From assembly GCF_000472425.1 (NCBI RefSeq), contig NZ_AXAI01000013.1, positions 62,168 through 126,167 of the forward strand: a stretch of DNA of 64,000 nt, in the 5' to 3' direction. Positions 52,948-62,039 of the stretch are shown one piece after another. The notes under the pieces were generated by a model. That model worked only from the letters and a program-made list of their open reading frames with translations. It was not told the DNA's origin and made no database searches. The DNA comes from Bradyrhizobium sp. Tv2a-2 (lineage in GTDB: Bacteria > Pseudomonadota > Alphaproteobacteria > Rhizobiales > Xanthobacteraceae). Position 1 is the stretch's first letter. Every line of letters starts with the position of its first letter. A program made the position numbers and the translations under genes.

Positions 52948-53949
52948 TTATGCCCGCGGCGGTACCGCCGGCGGCGTCGTGCCGGCCGATGGCACCGACC
53001 CTCGGCGGGCCGCCGCCGCAGCGGAAGCCGCGCTTTCGCCGAACGTTGCCTTCGCGATCTCGCCGATCCCGGCAAGCGAGGACAGCAGGCTCATCGCCTC
53101 CACAGGCAGCATGATCACCTTCTGGTTCGGCGCGTCGGCAAGCTGGCCGAACGCCTTGATGTATTTGTCGGCGATGAAATAGTTCAGCGCCGCGACATCG
53201 CCCTTGGCGATGGCCTCGCTGACCATCTGTGTCGCCTTGGCTTCGGCCTCTGCCGCGCGCTCGCGCGCCTCGGCGTCGCGAAAGGCGGCCTCGCGACGGC
53301 CCTCGGCCTGCAGGATCTGGCTTTGCTTGGCCCCCTCGGCGCGCAGGATTTCCGACTGCCGCTGACCTTCGGCCTGCAGAATGTCGGCGCGCTTGACGCG
53401 CTCGGCCTTCATCTGCCGCCCCATCGCTTCCACAAGGTCCGCCGGCGGCACGATGTCCTTGATCTCGATGCGGTTGACCTTGACGCCCCAGGGCGAGACC
53501 GCAGCATCGACTACGCGCAACAAGCGCTCGTTGATCTCGTCGCGATGCGACAGCACCTGGTCGAGATCCATCGAGCCCATCACCGAGCGGATGTTGGTCA
53601 TGGTCAGCACCGTGATCGCGTTCTCCAGATTGGCGACCTCGTAGCTCGCGCGCGCCGCCTCGAACACCTGGAAAAAGGCGACGCCGTCGGCCGTCACGGT
53701 GGCATTGTCCTTGGTGATCACCTCCTGCTCGGGAATGGAGATCACCTGCTCCATCATGTTCATCTTGCGGCCGACGCGGTCGAAATAGGGCACGATCAGA
53801 TTGAGCCCGGGCTTGAGCGTACGGGTGTATTTGCCGAAACGCTCGATGGTCCAGCCATAGCCCTGCGGCACCGTCTTGATGCCGGCAAACAGCGTGACGA
53901 TGACGAGCAGCACAAGGACGATCGCGAAAACATCGAAACCGGACAGCAT
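52948..53949 (-). CDS. SPFH/stomatin-like membrane protein (QmcA/slipin type)
   Basis: 333 residues. One N-terminal helix ([18 protein letters not shown]) is followed by the SPFH (band 7) domain: [36 protein letters not shown] and [20 protein letters not shown]. After it comes a long coiled coil with repeated [20 protein letters not shown], and a flexible Pro/Ala tail. It forms oligomeric membrane rings and pairs with NfeD. The frame extends slightly beyond the start but adds only basic residues. Confidence 0.92.
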
Positions 53950-54469
53950 AAAACCTCCAAGGCGGGCGACGACTTGACCCGCGCAGATTCACTGACCGGA
54001 CGTATATAGCTCACGGCCATGCCGTTTGTCTGACAACCATCAGCGCCGGTTCACAGGCTATTCTTGTCGCGGACCAGGCCGTGTATTGATAAATCCGCTG
54101 CCGTAACGGCCGAAATTCATATCCGCCTATGTCCACCTCGGTTCTGAACGCGACCGAATCGCTGCGCAGCGAAGTGCCGACGGCGTTAGCGCCTTCGTCT
54201 CGAAGCTCACACGGGCCGCGCCGGCCGTCAGTCGCGAAACCATCGGATTGCCGAGGTTCTTCACGCACCGTCTTTCGTTTGCGAAATCCACGATGCCTTT
54301 CACGTCGCGACCGCCGCCGTGGGCCGCCGAAATCGCGAGACGATCGGTCGGCTTCGCAGATGACGTTGAACCGACGCCCCAATTTGCCATCGCTTAGATC
54401 GTCGGGTCGCGCAGCATCCATTGCGAAGTAGCACGCATCTGCTTCTTCCCTTGCATCCCTTCTTATTTT
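53950..54469. other. Intergenic region upstream of the zinc locus
   Basis: 520 bases. Several open frames of 80-160 codons exist on both strands but overlap each other and show no family motif or ribosome site. It should contain the promoter of the SPFH gene at its left end and the -35 region of the Zur-controlled promoter at its right end. Confidence 0.45.
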
Positions 54470-54491
54470 ATGTAATGTTATAACATTACAT
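54470..54491. promoter_or_regulatory. Zur box (zinc uptake regulator operator)
   Basis: A perfect 22-base palindrome: ATGTAATGTTA followed by its complement. It matches the alphaproteobacterial Zur consensus as I remember it (a GTAATGTTATAACATTAC-type core). It lies 29 bases upstream of the GTPase start. Bound Zn-Zur should repress the locus; zinc shortage should release it. Confidence 0.85.
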
Positions 54492-54520
54492 ATGGCGTGC
54501 AAAAAAAGGGGAATAACGCC

Positions 54521-55492
54521 ATGCCCGATGCTGCACTCCAGATTCCGGTCACGGTTCTGACCGGCTATCTCGGCTCCGGGAAGACAACGCTGCTAAACCG
54601 CATTCTCTCCGAGACGCATGGCAAGCGGTTTGCCGTGATCGTGAACGAATTCGGAGAGGTCGGTATCGACAGCGATCTCATCGTCGATGCGGACGAAGAG
54701 ATTTTCGAGATGAACAACGGTTGCATCTGCTGCACGGTTCGGGGCGACCTTCTTCGTATCATCGGAGGCCTGATGCGGCGCAGCGGAGCCTTCGACGGCA
54801 TCGTCGTCGAGACGACAGGGCTCGCGGATCCTGCGCCGGTGGCGCAGACGTTCTTTGTCGATGAGGACGTCCGCCGCAAGACGAAGCTCGACGCCATCAT
54901 CACCGTCGCGGATGCCAAGCATCTCCTCGAACAGATCGAACGGACGCACGAAGCACAGGAACAACTCGCATTCGCCGACGTCGTTCTCGTCAACAAGGTC
55001 GATCTCGTCGATGCGGGCAGCCTCGCAACAATCGAACGTCGTGTCCGAAACATCAACCCATATGCGAAGATTCACAGAACGGAGCGCTGTGACATCGATC
55101 TCGCCCAGGTATTGGGGCGAGACGCCTTCAGTCTCGAGCGCATCCTCGAGGTCGAGCCGGGCTTCCTCACGGAAGAACACGAGCACGAACACGACGACAG
55201 GATCGGCAGCCTGTCCTTGGTCGCGGATCGACCGCTGAAGCCCAACAGGTTCGTGTCATGGATTCAGGATGTCACCCAACGCTACGGGACGGACATCCTG
55301 CGCATGAAGGGTATCGCGTCCATAGAGGATGACGATCGGCAGTTCGTCGTCCAGAGCGTACACATGCTCATTGAAGGTGGAAGTCGACGTCCCTGGAAGG
55401 AGCGGGAGCCGCGCCAGACACGGCTCGTCTTCATAGGGCGTGACCTGCCAAGGGACCTGCTAAGGCGAGGGTTTGAGGCTTGCTGCGCCTGA
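54521..55492 (+). CDS. COG0523 (CobW/ZigA-type) zinc-responsive GTPase metallochaperone
   Basis: 323 residues from the ATG at 54521 (AGGGGA before it). Walker [16 protein letters not shown], the metal-binding [29 protein letters not shown], the guanine-specificity VNKVD, and a His-rich loop EEHEHEHDD. The C-terminal CobW_C domain has [15 protein letters not shown] and [13 protein letters not shown]3E GTPases of this kind insert metal into client proteins, and the zinc-regulated group (ZigA, YciC, ZNG1-like) acts in zinc starvation. The perfect Zur box just upstream puts this one in that group. Confidence 0.9.
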
Positions 55493-55502
55493 GGGAGTTC
55501 AG

Positions 55503-55709
55503 ATGGGCGAGATCGTAGGATTCGTTTCAAAATCGGAGCTCGAACGGACTCGCTTAATTCGCGAGGCTCGCGCGATATATGACAGCATCTTTCCATCGGC
55601 CGATGCGGTCGGCGCACGACCCGATGACCGAACCGACAGGGGCGCCGCAACCGGATTGAAAGGGTCCGCTCCCTCGAAAGGAAACGTCCCGATGGCGGGG
55701 CATTTATAG
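55503..55709 (+). CDS. Small protein of the zinc locus, unknown function
   Basis: 68 residues from the ATG at 55503, with GAGGGAG six bases upstream, ten bases after the GTPase stop, so co-transcription is likely. The N-terminus MGEIVGFVSKSELERTRLI is amphipathic and helical, followed by IYDSIFPSADAVGARP and a hydrophilic tail. No zinc-binding motif is visible. I do not recognise the family; small conserved proteins of similar sequence occur in other rhizobia. Confidence 0.6.
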   Translation: MGEIVGFVSKSELERTRLIREARAIYDSIFPSADAVGARPDDRTDRGAATGLKGSAPSKGNVPMAGHL

Positions 55710-55847
55710 CCCCTCGATCGCCATATTTTCTTCGTCCATTGCGGGTGATCGCCAACGCGAGGCGGCCATTGCGCGCCTTCGCGCAGGTGACGGAAGTTTC
55801 GAGGGTTCCGACGTCAGAAGGGGAATGGCTCCTTGGCAGGGGCGAAA

Positions 55848-56237
55848 ATGATGTTGGCACGGGCGTTCGCCCGGCGATGCGGCGCCTATCTTGCGCTGGC
55901 GGCGCTGACGCTGCAGCTCGCGCTGTCGTTCGCGCATGTCCACAGGCATGACCTCGCCTTCGCAAGCTTCGACCGCACCGACATTGTGAGCGTCGGGCAT
56001 GTCCGGTCGGGACTACAAGTCGCCGAGCGACTGCCGGCACGGCTGGCTGACGACGACGAAAATTGCCCGATCTGCTTCTCGGGCTTCCTGCTGTCGAACT
56101 CGTCGTTGCCGGATGCGTCGGCAAAGCTGCATTCGCTGGAATTTGCCGCGGCTGATCGTCCGCTCAGTCCGGTTTCCGATCGGGTACTTCTGTCGCGTCA
56201 CATGGCATTCTTGTCGCGTGGGCCTCCTGCCGCCTGA
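55848..56237 (+). CDS. DUF2946-like small exported protein
   Basis: 129 residues from the ATG at 55848, behind AGGGGCGAAA. A hydrophobic segment YLALAALTLQLALSFAHVH near the N-terminus is followed by HRHDL, and later by DDENCPICFSGFLLSNSS, whose His and CxxC could bind a metal. DUF2946 members have this layout, with a CPxC cluster and His. Copper- and zinc-related loci often carry them. It sits between the GTPase and the ZevA-like gene. Confidence 0.65.
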   Translation: MMLARAFARRCGAYLALAALTLQLALSFAHVHRHDLAFASFDRTDIVSVGHVRSGLQVAERLPARLADDDENCPICFSGFLLSNSSLPDASAKLHSLEFAAADRPLSPVSDRVLLSRHMAFLSRGPPAA

Positions 56238-56429
56238 CGCCTTGCTGGCGCTTCTTGCTCGCCGGAGACAACTTACCCGCGGCGCGCGATCCCGATGAGA
56301 TCGTCCTCTCATTGCTGATCCAAGGCTAAACGCCGTGGCGGCGAGGAAATTGCCGGGCGCTCCGAGCCATCCGAGATCGCAGCTCCCGCCGTTTGCGGGC
56401 GCTCATCTTCCTCAATTGGCAGATACACC

Positions 56430-57068
56430 ATGATCAAACGCACCCGTTGCTGTTGCGCGATCCTTCTCCTGTTGTTGTGCGTCAACCGCGCACAGGCGCA
56501 TCCCCATGTGTGGGTAACCTTCCACAGCGAAGTGCTCTACGCCGCCGACGGCACCATGACGGGTGTCCGTCACGCCTGGACCTTCGATGACATGTTTTCA
56601 GCCTATGCGCTTCAGGGCATCTCCCATGCAAAAAAGGGCCAGTACACGCGCGAAGAATTGGCCTCGCTCGCCCTGACCAACGTGGATTCGCTCAAGGAAT
56701 ATGACTACTTCACCTACGCGCGTGCCGACGGCAAGAAGCTGAAGTTTGCGGACCCGGTCGATTATTGGCTCGAATACAAGAACGCCGCCCTCACCCTGCA
56801 TTTCACCTTGCCATTGAAAGCGGCCACCCCCGCCAAGGCCATGCAGATCGAGATCTACGACCCATCGATCTTCGTGGATTTCGAATTCGCAAAGGACAAG
56901 CCGGTTTCCCTGAGCGGCGCGCCGCAATGCCTCGCGAGCTACGATCTGCCCCACCAGCCGACGCCGGCCGAGCAAGCGCGGCTCAGCCAGCTTGACGCCG
57001 TGCCGCTGGATCCCTCCAGCACCTACGGGGAAATCTTCGCCAACAAGATTCTGGTGAAGTGCCCATGA
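56430..57068 (+). CDS. DUF1007 periplasmic protein (ZevA-like zinc-binding)
   Basis: 212 residues. A signal peptide (CCCAILLLLLCVNRAQA) leads into AHPHVWVTFHSEVLYAADG, the conserved opening of DUF1007, and VDYWLEYKN, PSIFVDFEFA and CLASYDLP. From literature as I recall it, the Haemophilus pair ZevA (DUF1007, binds zinc in the periplasm) and ZevB (a NicO-type permease) is needed for growth at low zinc. Here the next gene is a NicO-type permease overlapping by four bases, and a Zur box heads the locus, so the same job is likely. Confidence 0.8.
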   Translation: MIKRTRCCCAILLLLLCVNRAQAHPHVWVTFHSEVLYAADGTMTGVRHAWTFDDMFSAYALQGISHAKKGQYTREELASLALTNVDSLKEYDYFTYARADGKKLKFADPVDYWLEYKNAALTLHFTLPLKAATPAKAMQIEIYDPSIFVDFEFAKDKPVSLSGAPQCLASYDLPHQPTPAEQARLSQLDAVPLDPSSTYGEIFANKILVKCP

Positions 57069-58198
57069 GCAGATCGCGTAAAGTCACGTTGACTGCACTA
57101 GCGGCGATCCTGATTGCCTGTGCGACAGGTATCGCGTCGGCGTGGAGCGCGCCGTTCGGCGTACCGCACCCTGCAACTGCCACGTCAGCATCCAGCCTAA
57201 CGGGCTGGATTTTTGCCGAGCAAGCCGCTTTCTACCGTTCGCTGTCGGGCTTCATCCGCGCTAGCAAGCAGGATGGCGCCGCGATGCGGGAATTGTTCGG
57301 CATCTCCTTTGTCTACGGCGTCTTTCATGCCGTAGGCCCGGGGCATGGCAAGGCCGTGATCTCGTCCTATCTCGTCGCCAATGAAGAGACCTGGCGCCGC
57401 GGCATTGTGCTGTCATTCGTGTCCGCAGCGATCCAATCGGTCGTTGCCATTGTCGTCGTGGCCATTGCTGCCGTCCTGCTTGGCGCGACCGCGAAGGCGA
57501 TCGGACTGACCGTCCATCTGGTCGAGGTCGCAAGCTATGCTCTCGTCATCCTGATCGGCCTCAGGCTTCTCCATGTCAAAGGCCGCGGCTTCCTGATCAC
57601 CTGCCGCGAACTGACCGGGCGTCAGGCGGCCGACCTCGTTTTCGCGTCAGCTTCAGTTGCGAAAGGCCTGAATGCCACGACCTTCCGGTTGTCGGAGGGG
57701 AGGCCAGCCGCGATGGCCATGCGTGGTGCGCAATGCCAGATTGACGGATGCGCCGCTCACGCGCACGGCTTCCAGTGCCACCACGATCATGAGCACCATG
57801 AATCGGCCTGGGGCCACGCCCATGGGCCGGAGCCGGCGGTGCTCGCCGGCCCAGGCGGCTGGCGGCGAGGGCTCGCCGCAGTCGTCGCGGTCGGGTTGCG
57901 GCCCTGCTCCGGTGCGATCATCGTCCTCATCTTCGCGCTGGCCCAGGACCTGTTCTGGACCGGTGTCGGGGCGACTTTGATCATGGGACTGGGCACGGCT
58001 GCGACGGTAGCGGCAATTGCAACGGTCGCGGTCAGCGCACGCGGGCTCGCAAGTCGCATCGCCCGGACCCGGGCCGGGCTAGGCATGCTCACGATGCGAG
58101 CGATCGAGGTCGGCGCCGCAGCGCTTATCGTTGCGTTCGGCACTCTGCTGCTGGCGGGCTACATGGCGAGCGAGCAACTCTGGATGTTCACCGGATAG
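57065..58198 (+). CDS. NicO-family permease (ZevB-like)
   Basis: 377 residues from the ATG at 57065, which overlaps the upstream stop (ATGA) and implies coupled translation; a GTG two codons earlier is possible. About six hydrophobic spans. SFVYGVFHAVGPGHGKAVISS is the family's HAxGPGHGK signature. A cytosolic or periplasmic loop is His-rich (AHAHGFQCHHDHEHHESAWG), and GLRPCSGAIIVLIFALAQD is the second signature. NicO proteins move Ni or Co; with a DUF1007 partner and Zur control this copy should handle zinc. Confidence 0.82.
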   Translation: MSRSRKVTLTALAAILIACATGIASAWSAPFGVPHPATATSASSLTGWIFAEQAAFYRSLSGFIRASKQDGAAMRELFGISFVYGVFHAVGPGHGKAVISSYLVANEETWRRGIVLSFVSAAIQSVVAIVVVAIAAVLLGATAKAIGLTVHLVEVASYALVILIGLRLLHVKGRGFLITCRELTGRQAADLVFASASVAKGLNATTFRLSEGRPAAMAMRGAQCQIDGCAAHAHGFQCHHDHEHHESAWGHAHGPEPAVLAGPGGWRRGLAAVVAVGLRPCSGAIIVLIFALAQDLFWTGVGATLIMGLGTAATVAAIATVAVSARGLASRIARTRAGLGMLTMRAIEVGAAALIVAFGTLLLAGYMASEQLWMFTG

Positions 58199-58355
58199 GT
58201 GTGATGCCATCGACCGGCGCGCGCGGCTGCGGCCAAGGATGCACACGATCTGGCTCGGCTCGATGCTCGCCTTGTGCCCGCACCGCTAACGGAGCGGCAG
58301 CGGTGGCGCCGAGATAAAACAGCAACGCCCGCGTCGCATGCTCCCGCTCCGCCCC

Positions 58356-59393
58356 TTAAATCCAGCCCTGCAGCTCGCGCAGCACCAATTGGCGGATGAC
58401 GTCCATGCCGGGCTCGCTGTCGTTGAGACAGGGGATCGCGGAAAACGCCTCGCCGCCATTGTGCTTGAAGATCTCGGCGTTCTCGCCGGCGATCTCCTCC
58501 AGCGTCTCCAGACAATCGGCGGCAAAGCCCGGCATCACCACGGCCAGGCGCTTGACGCCCTCCTTCGCCAGCCGCTCCACCGTCTTGTCGGTGTAAGGCT
58601 GCAGCCACTCTTCATTGCCGAAGCGCGACTGAAAGGTCATCAGGAGTTTGTCCGGCGCCAGCCCAAGTTGCTTGCGCAAGGCCTCCGTCGTCGCCGCGCA
58701 TTGCACGGGATAGGGATCGCCGGCATCGACATAGGACTTCGGCATGCCGTGATAGGAGGCCAGCATCAAGTCCGGCTTGAACGGCAGCGTCGACAGATGC
58801 GCGTTGATCGAGACGGCGAGGGCCTCGATATAATCGGGATCGTCGTAATATGGCGGCGTCACCCGCAGCGTCGGCTGCGCGCGCAAGCTCGTCAGCACGC
58901 GGAACGCCTCGTCGCAGACGGTGGCGGACGTCGCAGCCGAATATTGCGGATAGAGCGGCACCACCAGCAGGCGGTCGCAGCCTTGCTCAGTGAGCGCCTC
59001 GATGCGGCTGCGCATGGACGGATTGCCGTAGCGCATCGCCCAATCGACCACGACATGGCCGTGGTCGGCGATCCCTGCAGCAAGCTTCTCGGCTTGCGCG
59101 CGGGTGATCGTCTTCAGCGGAGATTCGTTCTTTGCGGTGTTCCAGATCTTCTGGTAGTCGAGCGCCTTGGTCTTGGGCCGCCTGCGCAGGATGATGCCGT
59201 TGAGGATGAACTTCCAGACCAGGCCCTGGTTCTCGATCACGCGCGGATCGGACAGAAACTCCTTCAGATAGACCCGCACACCCGGCGCATCCGCCGTATC
59301 CGGCGTGCCGAGATTGACCAGCAGCACGCCGACGCGCGGCACGCCTGGCTCGGCCGCAGGTCTTGCGCTATCGGTTGGGAGCACGGCTGTCAT
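58356..59393 (-). CDS. hemH: Ferrochelatase
   Basis: 345 residues. GVLLVNLGTPDTADAPGVR opens the family; KFILNGIILRRRP, YPQYSAATSATVCD, SYHGMPKSYVDAGDPY and TFQSRFGNEEWLQPYTD carry the conserved His and Glu that load iron into protoporphyrin. The C-terminus ends near the last helix without a hydrophobic anchor, as usual in bacteria. It completes haem synthesis at the inner membrane. Transcribed towards the zinc locus, whose last stop is 158 bases away. Confidence 0.95.
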   Translation of the reverse strand: MTAVLPTDSARPAAEPGVPRVGVLLVNLGTPDTADAPGVRVYLKEFLSDPRVIENQGLVWKFILNGIILRRRPKTKALDYQKIWNTAKNESPLKTITRAQAEKLAAGIADHGHVVVDWAMRYGNPSMRSRIEALTEQGCDRLLVVPLYPQYSAATSATVCDEAFRVLTSLRAQPTLRVTPPYYDDPDYIEALAVSINAHLSTLPFKPDLMLASYHGMPKSYVDAGDPYPVQCAATTEALRKQLGLAPDKLLMTFQSRFGNEEWLQPYTDKTVERLAKEGVKRLAVVMPGFAADCLETLEEIAGENAEIFKHNGGEAFSAIPCLNDSEPGMDVIRQLVLRELQGWI

Positions 59394-59484
59394 GGCAATT
59401 CCACCCCGGATTCGCGCGTTGCACCGTCCTTGTCAAGCCGACGCCCGGTTCGATAGTCTCCGCGCGACCTTAAAGGGATGGCAA

Positions 59485-59883
59485 ATGACGATCGCGGAAT
59501 TCTGCGTTTTCGGGGCCGTGGCGCTTTATCTGCTGACGATCGTTCCGATCAAATGGCTGGCCTTTCGCGAGTATGACAACGCCAAGCCGCGCGATCCGGC
59601 CTTTTACGAGGATGCAATCCGCGCCCGGGCGCTCGGCGCGCACCAGAACGGCATCGAGACGTTCCCGTTCTTTGCGGTTGCCGTGCTGCTTGCTGAATTC
59701 CGCGAAGCGCCGCAGAATTTGATCAACGAGCTCGCCATCCTGTTTTTGATCGTGCGGGTCGCCTACGTCCTGACCTATATCGGCAACCGCCCGCGGCTGC
59801 GCTCGATCCTCTGGAACGTCGGCTTTGCCATCAACATCGCGATCTTCTTCCTGCCGCTGATCAGGAAGCTGTGGATGGCGTGA
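59485..59883 (+). CDS. MAPEG family membrane protein
   Basis: 132 residues from the ATG at 59485, behind GGGATGG. Four hydrophobic spans: FCVFGAVALYLLTIVPIKW, TFPFFAVAVLLAEF, ELAILFLIVRVAYVLTYI and LWNVGFAINIAIFFLPLI. The loop RARALGAHQNGIETFP and RVAYVLTYIGNRPRLRS are MAPEG signatures. The family includes membrane glutathione S-transferases; the bacterial role is usually unknown. It is divergent from hemH. Confidence 0.85.
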   Translation: MTIAEFCVFGAVALYLLTIVPIKWLAFREYDNAKPRDPAFYEDAIRARALGAHQNGIETFPFFAVAVLLAEFREAPQNLINELAILFLIVRVAYVLTYIGNRPRLRSILWNVGFAINIAIFFLPLIRKLWMA

Positions 59884-59948
59884 GGCGGCTGCATGAGCGC
59901 AACCGCGCAGGGTGGGTTGCGCAACAAATCCACCCTGCGGCCGCATCG

Positions 59949-62039
59949 TCACGCCGCCTTCGCATCATCCAACAGCCCGCGGCGGCGGAGCAGGGCATCG
60001 GGCTCGGGCTCGCGGCCACGGAAGGCGATGTAGGCGGCTTCGGGATCGACCGAGCCGCCCGTCGAATAGATGTCGTCGTGCAGGCGCTTGGCGACATCTG
60101 GATCGAAGATGTCGCCGGCCTCCTCGAAGGCGCCGAACGCGTCCGCATCCATCACTTCCGACCACATGTAGCTGTAATAGCCGGCCGCATAATAGCCGCC
60201 GGAGAAAACATGACCGAACTGCTGCGGCCGGTGCCGCATGGCGATCTCCTCGGGCATGCCGATCTTTTCCAGCTCCTGGCGCTCGAATGCCCGCACATCC
60301 CTGATGCCGGCGGCCGGCTGGGTGTGGAATTCGAGATCGACCAGCGCCGAGGAAACGAACTCCACGGTGGCAAAACCCTGGTTGAATTTTCGCGCGGCGA
60401 GGAAGCGCTTGAGGAGGTCCTCGGGCAGCGGCTCGCCGGTCTGATAGTGCCGGGCGAACTTCTGCAGCACCTCCGGGCGCTCCTGCCAGTGCTCGTAGAG
60501 CTGGGACGGCAGCTCGACAAAGTCGGTGAAGACGCTGGTGCCCGACAACGAGGGATAGACCACGTTCGACAGCATGCCGTGCAGGCCGTGGCCGAACTCG
60601 TGGAACAGGGTCCGCGCTTCATCCGGCGAGAGCAGCGAGGGCTGACCTTCGGCGCCCTTGGCGAAATTGCAGACATTGATGATCAAGGGCGCCACCTCGC
60701 CGTCCAGCCGCTGCTGGTCGCGCAGCGAGGTCATCCAGGCGCCGGAGCGCTTGGAGGAGCGGGCAAAGTAGTCGCCGTAGAACAGCGCCTTGTGGGCGCC
60801 CGAGGCGTCGCGGACCTCCCAGACCCGGACATCAGGATGCCAGACCGGGATATCCTTGCGCTCGGTGAAGGTGATGCCGAACAGGCGGGTGGCGCAGTCG
60901 AAGGCCGCTTCGATCATGTTGTCGAGCGGCAGATAGGGCTTGATCGCCGCATCGTCGAAATTGGCTTTGGCCTGCCGCATCTTCTCGGCGTAGTAGCGCC
61001 AGTCCCAGGCGGCGAGCTTGAAATTGGTGCCCTCCTCCGCGATCAGCGCCTGCATCTCGTCGCGGTCGGCAAGCGCCCGCGCCCGGGCCGGCTGCCAGAC
61101 CCGCTCCAGGAGCCCGCGCACCGCCTCTGGCGTCTTGGCCATGGAGTCCTCAAGGCGATAGGCGGCGAAGGTTGGATAGCCGAGCAGCTTGGCGCTGGCC
61201 TCGCGCAGCTCCAGGATCTCGCCGATGACGGCGTTGTTGTCATTGTCATTGCCATTGTCGCCGCGGGCGATGAAGGCCTTGTAGACCTTCTCCCGCAGGT
61301 CCCGTCGCTCTGAGCTCTGCAGGAACGGCTCCACGGAGGAACGCGACAGGGTGACGATCGCCTTGCCGGCCATGCCGCGCTCGTCGGCCGCGGCCTTGGC
61401 AGCGGCGATGAAGGTGTCGGAGAGGCCGGCATGGTCGGTCTCGGCGAGCTCCAGGAACCAGTCCTGCTCGTCGGCAAGCAGATGGTGGCTGAAGGTGGTG
61501 CCGAGCTGCGCCAGCCGCTCATTGATCTCGGCCATCCGCTTCTTGTCGTCCTCGCTCAAGCCCGCACCTGAGCGGTGGAAGCGGGTGTAGGTACGGTCGA
61601 GCAGCCGCAACTGCTCAGGGGACAACGTCAGGCTCGTGCGGTTGTCGTGCAGGAGCGCGATGCGGCCAAACAGCACACCATTCATCATGATCGGATTCCA
61701 GTGCCGGGCCATCCGCAAGGATACGTCCTTGTCGATCTCCAGGATCTCGGGGTTGGAGTTCGCCGACACCAGGTCATAGAACACGGCCGAGACCTTGTTG
61801 AGCAGCTTGCCCGAGCGCTCCAGCGCGGTGATGGTGTTGTCGAAGTCGGGCGTCGCCGGATCATGCGTGATGGCGGTGATCTCCGCGACGTGATCGGTGA
61901 AGGCCTGCTCGAAGGCCGGGAGGAAGTCCTCCGGCTTGATCTCGTCAAAGGGCGGGGTCTGGTGCGGCGTCTCCCAGGGCCTGAGCAGCGGGTTGGTGTG
62001 GGTCTGGGGAAGCACCTTGGTTTGCGCAATCTCTGACAT
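59949..62039 (-). CDS. M3 family oligopeptidase/dipeptidyl carboxypeptidase
   Basis: 696 residues from the ATG at 62039. The metal-binding HEFGHGLHGM lies in TLFHEFGHGLHGMLSNV, and the third ligand in the downstream FVELPSQLYEHW. MSWEV-like YYAAGYYSYMWSEVMD near the C-terminus closes the substrate channel. This is a neutral zinc endopeptidase/peptidyl-dipeptidase (Dcp/OpdA group) in the cytosol that finishes degradation of signal peptides and short peptides. The frame is open upstream to 62180 but adds a Lys-rich stretch unlike the family. Confidence 0.93.
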   Translation of the reverse strand: MSEIAQTKVLPQTHTNPLLRPWETPHQTPPFDEIKPEDFLPAFEQAFTDHVAEITAITHDPATPDFDNTITALERSGKLLNKVSAVFYDLVSANSNPEILEIDKDVSLRMARHWNPIMMNGVLFGRIALLHDNRTSLTLSPEQLRLLDRTYTRFHRSGAGLSEDDKKRMAEINERLAQLGTTFSHHLLADEQDWFLELAETDHAGLSDTFIAAAKAAADERGMAGKAIVTLSRSSVEPFLQSSERRDLREKVYKAFIARGDNGNDNDNNAVIGEILELREASAKLLGYPTFAAYRLEDSMAKTPEAVRGLLERVWQPARARALADRDEMQALIAEEGTNFKLAAWDWRYYAEKMRQAKANFDDAAIKPYLPLDNMIEAAFDCATRLFGITFTERKDIPVWHPDVRVWEVRDASGAHKALFYGDYFARSSKRSGAWMTSLRDQQRLDGEVAPLIINVCNFAKGAEGQPSLLSPDEARTLFHEFGHGLHGMLSNVVYPSLSGTSVFTDFVELPSQLYEHWQERPEVLQKFARHYQTGEPLPEDLLKRFLAARKFNQGFATVEFVSSALVDLEFHTQPAAGIRDVRAFERQELEKIGMPEEIAMRHRPQQFGHVFSGGYYAAGYYSYMWSEVMDADAFGAFEEAGDIFDPDVAKRLHDDIYSTGGSVDPEAAYIAFRGREPEPDALLRRRGLLDDAKAA

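Follow-up and report, generated by a model that had tools for sequence, protein, structure and literature searches.

The locus considered here occupies positions 54470–58198 of the window, that is, the whole stretch of 64,000 nucleotides from Bradyrhizobium sp. Tv2a-2 (contig NZ_AXAI01000013.1) that was analyzed. It consists of a Zur-type box followed by five genes, including those for a COG0523 GTPase, a DUF2946-like open reading frame (ORF) that is a candidate regulator, and an adjacent pair encoding a DUF1007 protein and a NicO-family permease. The features, with the evidence for each, are these:

54160–54439, minus strand: remnant of a YkuD_2-like (L,D-transpeptidase-like) gene in two pieces that lie in different frames (tblastn, combined E 4e-22).
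54470–54491, no strand assigned: Zur-type box, the perfect 22-bp palindrome ATGTAATGTTATAACATTACAT (palindrome and genome-wide site count).
54521–55492, plus strand: COG0523 GTPase, 323 amino acids (aa), with a GCICC motif and a short HEHEHDD stretch (PF02492 and PF07683).
55503–55709, plus strand: 68-aa protein of a multicopy Bradyrhizobium family, possibly a passenger (no Pfam match, 5 own-genome matches, conserved N-terminus).
55848–56237, plus strand: DUF2946-like ORF, 129 aa, candidate metal-sensing upstream ORF (motif anatomy).
56064–56075, plus strand: CPIC motif of the DUF2946-like ORF (read directly).
56217–56228, plus strand: RGPP motif of the same ORF, followed by two residues and the stop.
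56253–56268, plus strand: region aligned to a short conserved hairpin just 3' of the DUF2946-like ORF (weak; covariation not above shuffles).
56382–56402, plus strand: conserved GC hairpin 5' of the DUF1007 gene (98.8% of cells paired in 12 sequences, with hardly any variation).
56430–57068, plus strand: DUF1007 protein (ZevA type) of a zinc-linked clade, with HPHVW after the leader (PF06226, tree and alignment).
57065–58198, plus strand: NicO-family permease (ZevB type; PF03824).

Direct reading bears out an earlier note on this DNA in placing a perfect Zur-type palindrome 29 bases before the COG0523 ATG at 54521 and, after it, five same-strand genes in the order given above. The COG0523, DUF1007 and NicO products all score above the Pfam cut-offs (PF02492, 202.6 bits; PF07683, 90.4; DUF1007, 213; NicO, 123.5), and the genes for the latter two share a four-base overlap at 57065–57068. 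The HRHD and CPIC motifs that the note ascribed to a DUF2946-like protein are likewise read directly, but the formal family score for DUF2946 (PF11162) is 15.5 bits, or 16.0 from a later start, with the curated cut-off at 23.7, hence the label “DUF2946-like”.

Palindromicity by itself is a weak argument, since 5 of 60 windows simulated with a Markov model also contain a perfect 22-bp palindrome, and it was set aside as the sole ground for calling a Zur box; the sequence of the box is strong evidence. Its 18-bp core, at up to three mismatches, has two sites in the 8,496,279 bases searched (none for the reversed-pattern control), and the second of these, 19 kb away, heads znuC-znuB-znuA-COG0523 (locus L005; genes recognised by eye). 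The ZnuA of this genome is 57% identical to a protein with a Pfam ZnuA match. A Zur-like protein, one of three FUR-family matches in the genome, is also encoded; its best solved relatives are 7dh7 (Fur family, 3.4e-35) and Escherichia coli Zur, 4mtd (9.7e-31). A published consensus for the Agrobacterium group is said to lie one base from the core of the window box. The Sinorhizobium box is described, in the part of the source available, as a 15-bp element of the 7-1-7 type (PMC7029138).

A search with the box pattern in 20 relatives yields 1–9 sites each, and the reversed-pattern control one site in 5 of the 20 genomes. Inspection covered 47 of the 65 boxes in relatives, 31 in loci L132–L151 and 16 in L007–L022. 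Among the 31 further boxes, 29 lie within about 1.5 kb of a znu, COG0523, TonB receptor, DUF2946 or YkuD_2-like match, and two have no zinc-type gene nearby (L138, with only the 68-aa gene, and L147, with nothing). No known RNA element is detected in the operon at E ≤ 0.1, and a search for sigma-70-type promoters finds none, with 1.0 expected. The genome comparisons of the box strongly support Zur control of the operon by way of the predicted box, to which Zur would presumably bind.

Comparison with relatives, in which box and gene content recur, also supports the interpretation of the earlier note that this is a zinc locus headed by a Zur box and containing a COG0523 gene and a ZevA/ZevB-like pair. 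Among the matches listed, DUF1007 is found in 189 of 195 Bradyrhizobium genomes. Proteins 83–90% identical to the window copy are encoded at 16 further loci, spread over 14 genomes, and the remaining listed copies are 54–60% identical. In a tree of 121 DUF1007 sequences, the zinc-linked group and one Nitrobacter sequence form a single clade (100/100, with the bootstrap not fully settled). The Bradyrhizobium loci of this clade number 20 (the window, L007–L022, L047, L049 and L051); L048 and L050 were dropped as copies of L007 and L021, the Nitrobacter locus L052 belongs to the clade and stands outside the 20, and the Pseudolabrys loci L053–L056, which have no box, are counted neither here nor with the other copies. 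A box (up to three mismatches) lies upstream in 15 of the 20 loci, the boxes 16 and 20 kb upstream of L018 on its contig being left out of this count. At up to four mismatches, none is found in the fetched stretches of 94 loci with other DUF1007 copies, 9 of which are shorter than 10 kb (the shortest, 4.8 kb).

The lack of boxes in the fetched stretches of these 94 loci, together with the fact that the NicO family includes exporters such as RcnA, could be taken to mean that DUF1007-NicO exports metal or handles nickel/cobalt and that its placement in the Zur block is fortuitous. Such an arrangement is very unlikely, given that six clade loci (L010, L011, L012, L014, L019 and L021) have DUF2946-DUF1007-NicO headed by the box without an intervening COG0523 gene and that an exporter would be unexpected under zinc-starvation derepression.

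The DUF2946-like ORF stands directly before DUF1007 in 16 of the 20 clade loci, with a gap of 192 bp in the window. Its product there starts with a hydrophobic leader (recognised by eye), followed by AHVH, CPIC, 47 residues, RGPP and two residues before the stop. The spacing of 47 between CXXC and R(A/G)PP is found in 16 of 16 orthologues, and R(A/G)PP is located two residues before the stop in 14 of the 16; a match to PF11162 at E ≤ 0.1 is present in 12 of 14 aligned relatives. Across 30 related ORFs, HxH lies at variable distances from CXXC (30–55), so that only the distance from sensor to arrest motif is held. This arrangement resembles that of CruR from Bordetella pertussis, a DUF2946 upstream ORF that, in the available portion of its description, senses copper via CXXC and acts on the genes that follow by means of a C-terminal arrest motif, RAPP; CXXC and RAPP are 45 residues apart, and the gap to the next gene measures 162 bp (PMC9426467). 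It is also similar to CutF of Rhodobacter capsulatus, a leader ORF with a cysteine motif and a proline-rich end before metal genes, which is described in the accessible text as working via export, the proline-rich end and a hairpin (PMC9973294). The DUF2946-like gene has, by these motifs, the anatomy of a CruR/CutF-type upstream ORF and is a candidate regulator, which departs from its earlier description as one of “two extra small parts”. The same features bear on a different possibility, namely, that in a Zur-repressed operon the protein is stable in the periplasm, binds zinc there as an accessory to DUF1007, which it feeds, and has no regulatory role: HxH and CXXC could bind zinc, pausing is a prediction for these DUF2946-like proteins, and Zur control alone accounts for the box. 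A mere accessory would not be expected to keep CXXC and R(A/G)PP at a fixed distance of 46–47 when that from HxH to CXXC ranges between 30 and 55, nor to carry R(A/G)PP at its very C-terminus and be encoded directly before transporter genes; with the CruR and CutF precedents added, this alternative appears somewhat unlikely.

A six-frame scan for the signature of these ORFs gives 30 hits in 43 zinc-type loci, two of them in duplicate loci and four lacking HxH; in 102 other loci, 1.64 Mb in all, it gives no hits. Since zinc genes or DUF1007 were the grounds for choosing these loci, and since DUF2946 ORFs also occur elsewhere in the same genomes, the scan demonstrates association, not restriction. 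A less biased set combines PF11162 ORFs from nine genomes with the matches of a profile of the [AG]HxH type across 397 genomes of the order; the profile matches 34 of the 397, including all 15 of the genus. Among 49 distinct signature proteins, the window protein included, a Zur-type site TGTTATNNNATAACA (up to two mismatches) lies upstream of 22 of the 28 [AG]HxH ORFs versus 1 of the 21 others (Fisher p 2.1e-7, uncorrected for relatedness). The receptors encoded behind four of five [AG]HxH ORFs tested (L184, L190, L195 and L197) score best, among the named models, with ZnuD (3e-57 to 3e-64, well below the curated cut-off), and none of the five tested receptors behind ORFs without [AG]HxH has a ZnuD match. 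These ties count against the suggestion that the second switch senses copper (or nickel/cobalt) and shuts the zinc importers when a competing metal is present. That suggestion has CruR and CutF, both copper sensors, in its favor, along with the proposal, in the part of the report available, that some CutF relatives beside HupE/UreJ bind other metals (PMC9973294). [AG]HxH ORFs go together with Zur-type boxes and, for the most part, with ZnuD-like receptors, and it is the DUF2946 ORFs without HxH that lack the tie to Zur boxes; a copper-type switch is thus distinctly unlikely. As a separate observation, DUF2946 ORFs without HxH in L183, L189 and L192 precede the gene for a protein of about 333 aa (AHEIVGNRFFPAT...) that lacks a Pfam match.

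The combination of motif anatomy and association points to a second gate, and the association with Zur boxes suggests zinc as its putative ligand. It is, if narrowly, probable that the block is a zinc-import operon under Zur repression and that a nascent peptide, by sensing metal, serves as the second gate on DUF1007-NicO. The broader proposal, that in Bradyrhizobium a zinc-type subfamily of DUF2946-like nascent-peptide sensors ([AG]HxH, CXXC and R(A/G)PP) adds a second, post-transcriptional level of gating to importers that Zur represses, both ZnuD-like receptors and DUF1007-NicO, and is the zinc counterpart of CruR, is plausible and held more tentatively, somewhat short of probable. Under this scheme, Zur would hold the operon off in ample zinc and, in zinc shortage, would leave the palindrome, so that the COG0523, DUF2946-like, DUF1007 and NicO genes would be transcribed. 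DUF1007 would bind periplasmic metal and hand it over to the NicO permease for import, and the GTPase would allocate scarce zinc inside the cell. The DUF2946-like ORF would be a second switch and not a transport part, its HxH and CXXC motifs testing for metal during synthesis and export: with no metal, the ribosome would pause at the C-terminal R(A/G)PP and the importer genes would be read; with metal back, the pause would be relieved and importer expression would stop. The step downstream of the pause might be Rho termination or the opening of a hairpin.

Two short hairpins between the DUF2946-like ORF and DUF1007 are kept in 12 relatives, with 95.5% of cells paired versus 32–63% when the positions are slid, and all 14 loci examined show, at the end of the ORF, an excess of C over G greater than the local mean, strong in L008 and L009 and hardly so in the window. 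Several observations weigh against the scheme of a second, zinc-sensing gate. At the RNA level, hairpin covariation is not above that of shuffles (40 of 500 reach it), the fold of the window gap is not unusually stable (z −0.53), and the C-over-G excess at the window ORF end is ordinary, half of the flanking windows being equally high. The window protein falls under the Pfam cut-off and carries RGPP, not RAPP (RGPP occurs in other family members too). L020 and L049 have altered ORF ends, with R(A/G)PP 17 and 12 residues before the stop, respectively, and no DUF2946-like ORF precedes DUF1007 in L015, L022, L047 and L051. The clade loci L018, L020, L049 and L051 have no box in the fetched stretch, that of L022 is on the far side only, and the Nitrobacter locus L052, within the clade, also has none. 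The Fisher test of [AG]HxH against the box ignores relatedness, and the ligand of CruR is copper. Finally, the genome itself encodes a second [AG]HxH DUF2946-type ORF with an RGPP end before a TonB receptor (L199, C7:219824-220189), which has no box and whose receptor has no ZnuD hit.

The usual DUF1007 copy adjoins an M3-peptidase gene in 68 of 70 named loci, and hemH and a stomatin-like gene follow in 54 of the 70. In the window, the zinc cluster is placed between hemH and the stomatin-like gene, and the usual DUF1007-NicO pair is absent from the M3-peptidase/hemH interval, with no remnant found there; a relic at the old place was rejected as a candidate, the trimmed queries giving best E values of 2.4 (DUF1007) and 0.40 (NicO). 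The zinc-linked DUF1007 is the only one of this genome, and of the 14 other genomes that carry a zinc-linked copy, 13 have additional DUF1007 matches among those listed. Apparently, a Zur-unlinked DUF1007-NicO copy has been swapped for a Zur-linked one. The flanking segments 58199–59949 and 52951–54160 of the window put the zinc-linked pair one gene away from the place of the lost usual pair.

The HPHVW motif after the DUF1007 leader is invariant in the alignment. A sequence search for a solved DUF1007 structure finds nothing credible (best E 0.39), and the predicted fold (model m9cc4b72bb846, mean pLDDT 79.5) consists mostly of strands. This model can be aligned to pentameric ligand-gated channels in their extracellular domains (10% identity over 149 residues, best Z 9.8, rmsd 3.6), a match that was not used and may reflect only a common strand arrangement. 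A copper-bound domain of a HupE/UreJ-2 protein aligns weakly to the model (TM 0.31/0.38); the proposal, in the available part of PMC12537917, that N-terminal histidines capture metal and feed HupE/UreJ permeases applies to DUF1007 by analogy only.

In five clade loci (L007, L013, L016, L017 and L020), a second znuA-like gene and a YkuD_2-like gene are divergent to the operon, and a box lies between them and the operon in the first four, not in L020. The intact YkuD_2-like protein of L013 scores 26.9 bits with PF13645, just under the cut-off of 27, and a tblastn search with it identifies the broken remnant to which this gene is reduced in the window, where the second znuA is gone. Judged by this gene content, the window block is a reduced form of the two-sided locus found in relatives. 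Other clade loci combine these genes with TonB receptors, an ExbB-like gene and a ZigA-like COG0523 gene. The YkuD_2-like gene recurs by Zur-type boxes in Bradyrhizobium (L013:11841-12845, L014:4147-5142, L143:4025, L146:8236 and L047:5261) and is a candidate zinc-controlled cell-wall enzyme worth a look.

The COG0523 protein contains the CobW nucleotide-binding and C-terminal domains with the CXCC motif (GCICC), and the nearest solved sequence is E. coli YjiA (1.1e-54). The 68-aa protein has no Pfam match and belongs to a family with a conserved N-terminus and five copies in this genome (window 55503–55709, C13:233010, C29:818, C11:184843 and C15:176975), the gene sometimes following a COG0523 gene directly and in one case a box (loci L132, L134, L138 and L149). 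As a member of a multicopy family, it is unsupported as a specific zinc part, and is perhaps a passenger.

Taken singly, ZevAB, COG0523 genes within Zur regulons and upstream ORFs with DUF2946 are already known. The window shares with ZevAB the DUF1007 and NicO pair, the domains assigned to ZevA and ZevB, and differs in that the pair lies behind a Zur box in a block with a COG0523 gene and a DUF2946-like ORF. Rosadini is said to have reported ZevAB in 2011 as a zinc-binding/uptake system of Haemophilus influenzae. It is cited as such in the available parts of PMC8000910 and PMC10563805. CruR shares with the window the CXXC, the similar spacing and gap, and a C-terminal motif of the form R(A/G)PP (RAPP in CruR, RGPP in the window), but is, as far as its available description goes, a copper system in a TonB-receptor operon, whereas the window has HxH after the leader, a Zur box and DUF1007-NicO (PMC9426467). 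CutF differs in its CxxxC motif and in that copper turns expression on via a hairpin over the ribosome-binding site, according to the accessible text (PMC9973294). The Caulobacter Zur regulon similarly has Zur boxes before TonB receptors and a COG0523 gene, as well as a DUF2946 gene, CC2720, with a predicted Zur site, but CC2720 sits in an efflux operon activated by Zur, and DUF1007-NicO is not met in the part of that account available (PMC4176598). Zur-linked COG0523 metallochaperones include, in the partial texts, CXCC GTPases behind Zur boxes (PMC2770081), with ZigA and YciC as examples (PMC8000910); the window GTPase differs in having YjiA as its nearest solved relative. The union of ZevAB, a Zur-linked COG0523 gene and a DUF2946 upstream ORF was not found in the open-licence PMC literature, mostly screened at listing level. 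A tie of the [AG]HxH DUF2946 type to Zur boxes was not found there either, at the same level of screening, and the same literature yielded no report of DUF1007 with Zur.

Zinc control in proteobacteria is generally described as transcriptional, via Zur. If these ORFs respond to zinc, the importers have a second, faster gate that reads the metal during synthesis and export of a leader protein. This would provide a testable function for DUF2946-type genes in zinc regulons, with [AG]HxH as a sequence mark that may separate zinc from copper types, and would add a new control point to the rhizobial response to zinc shortage.

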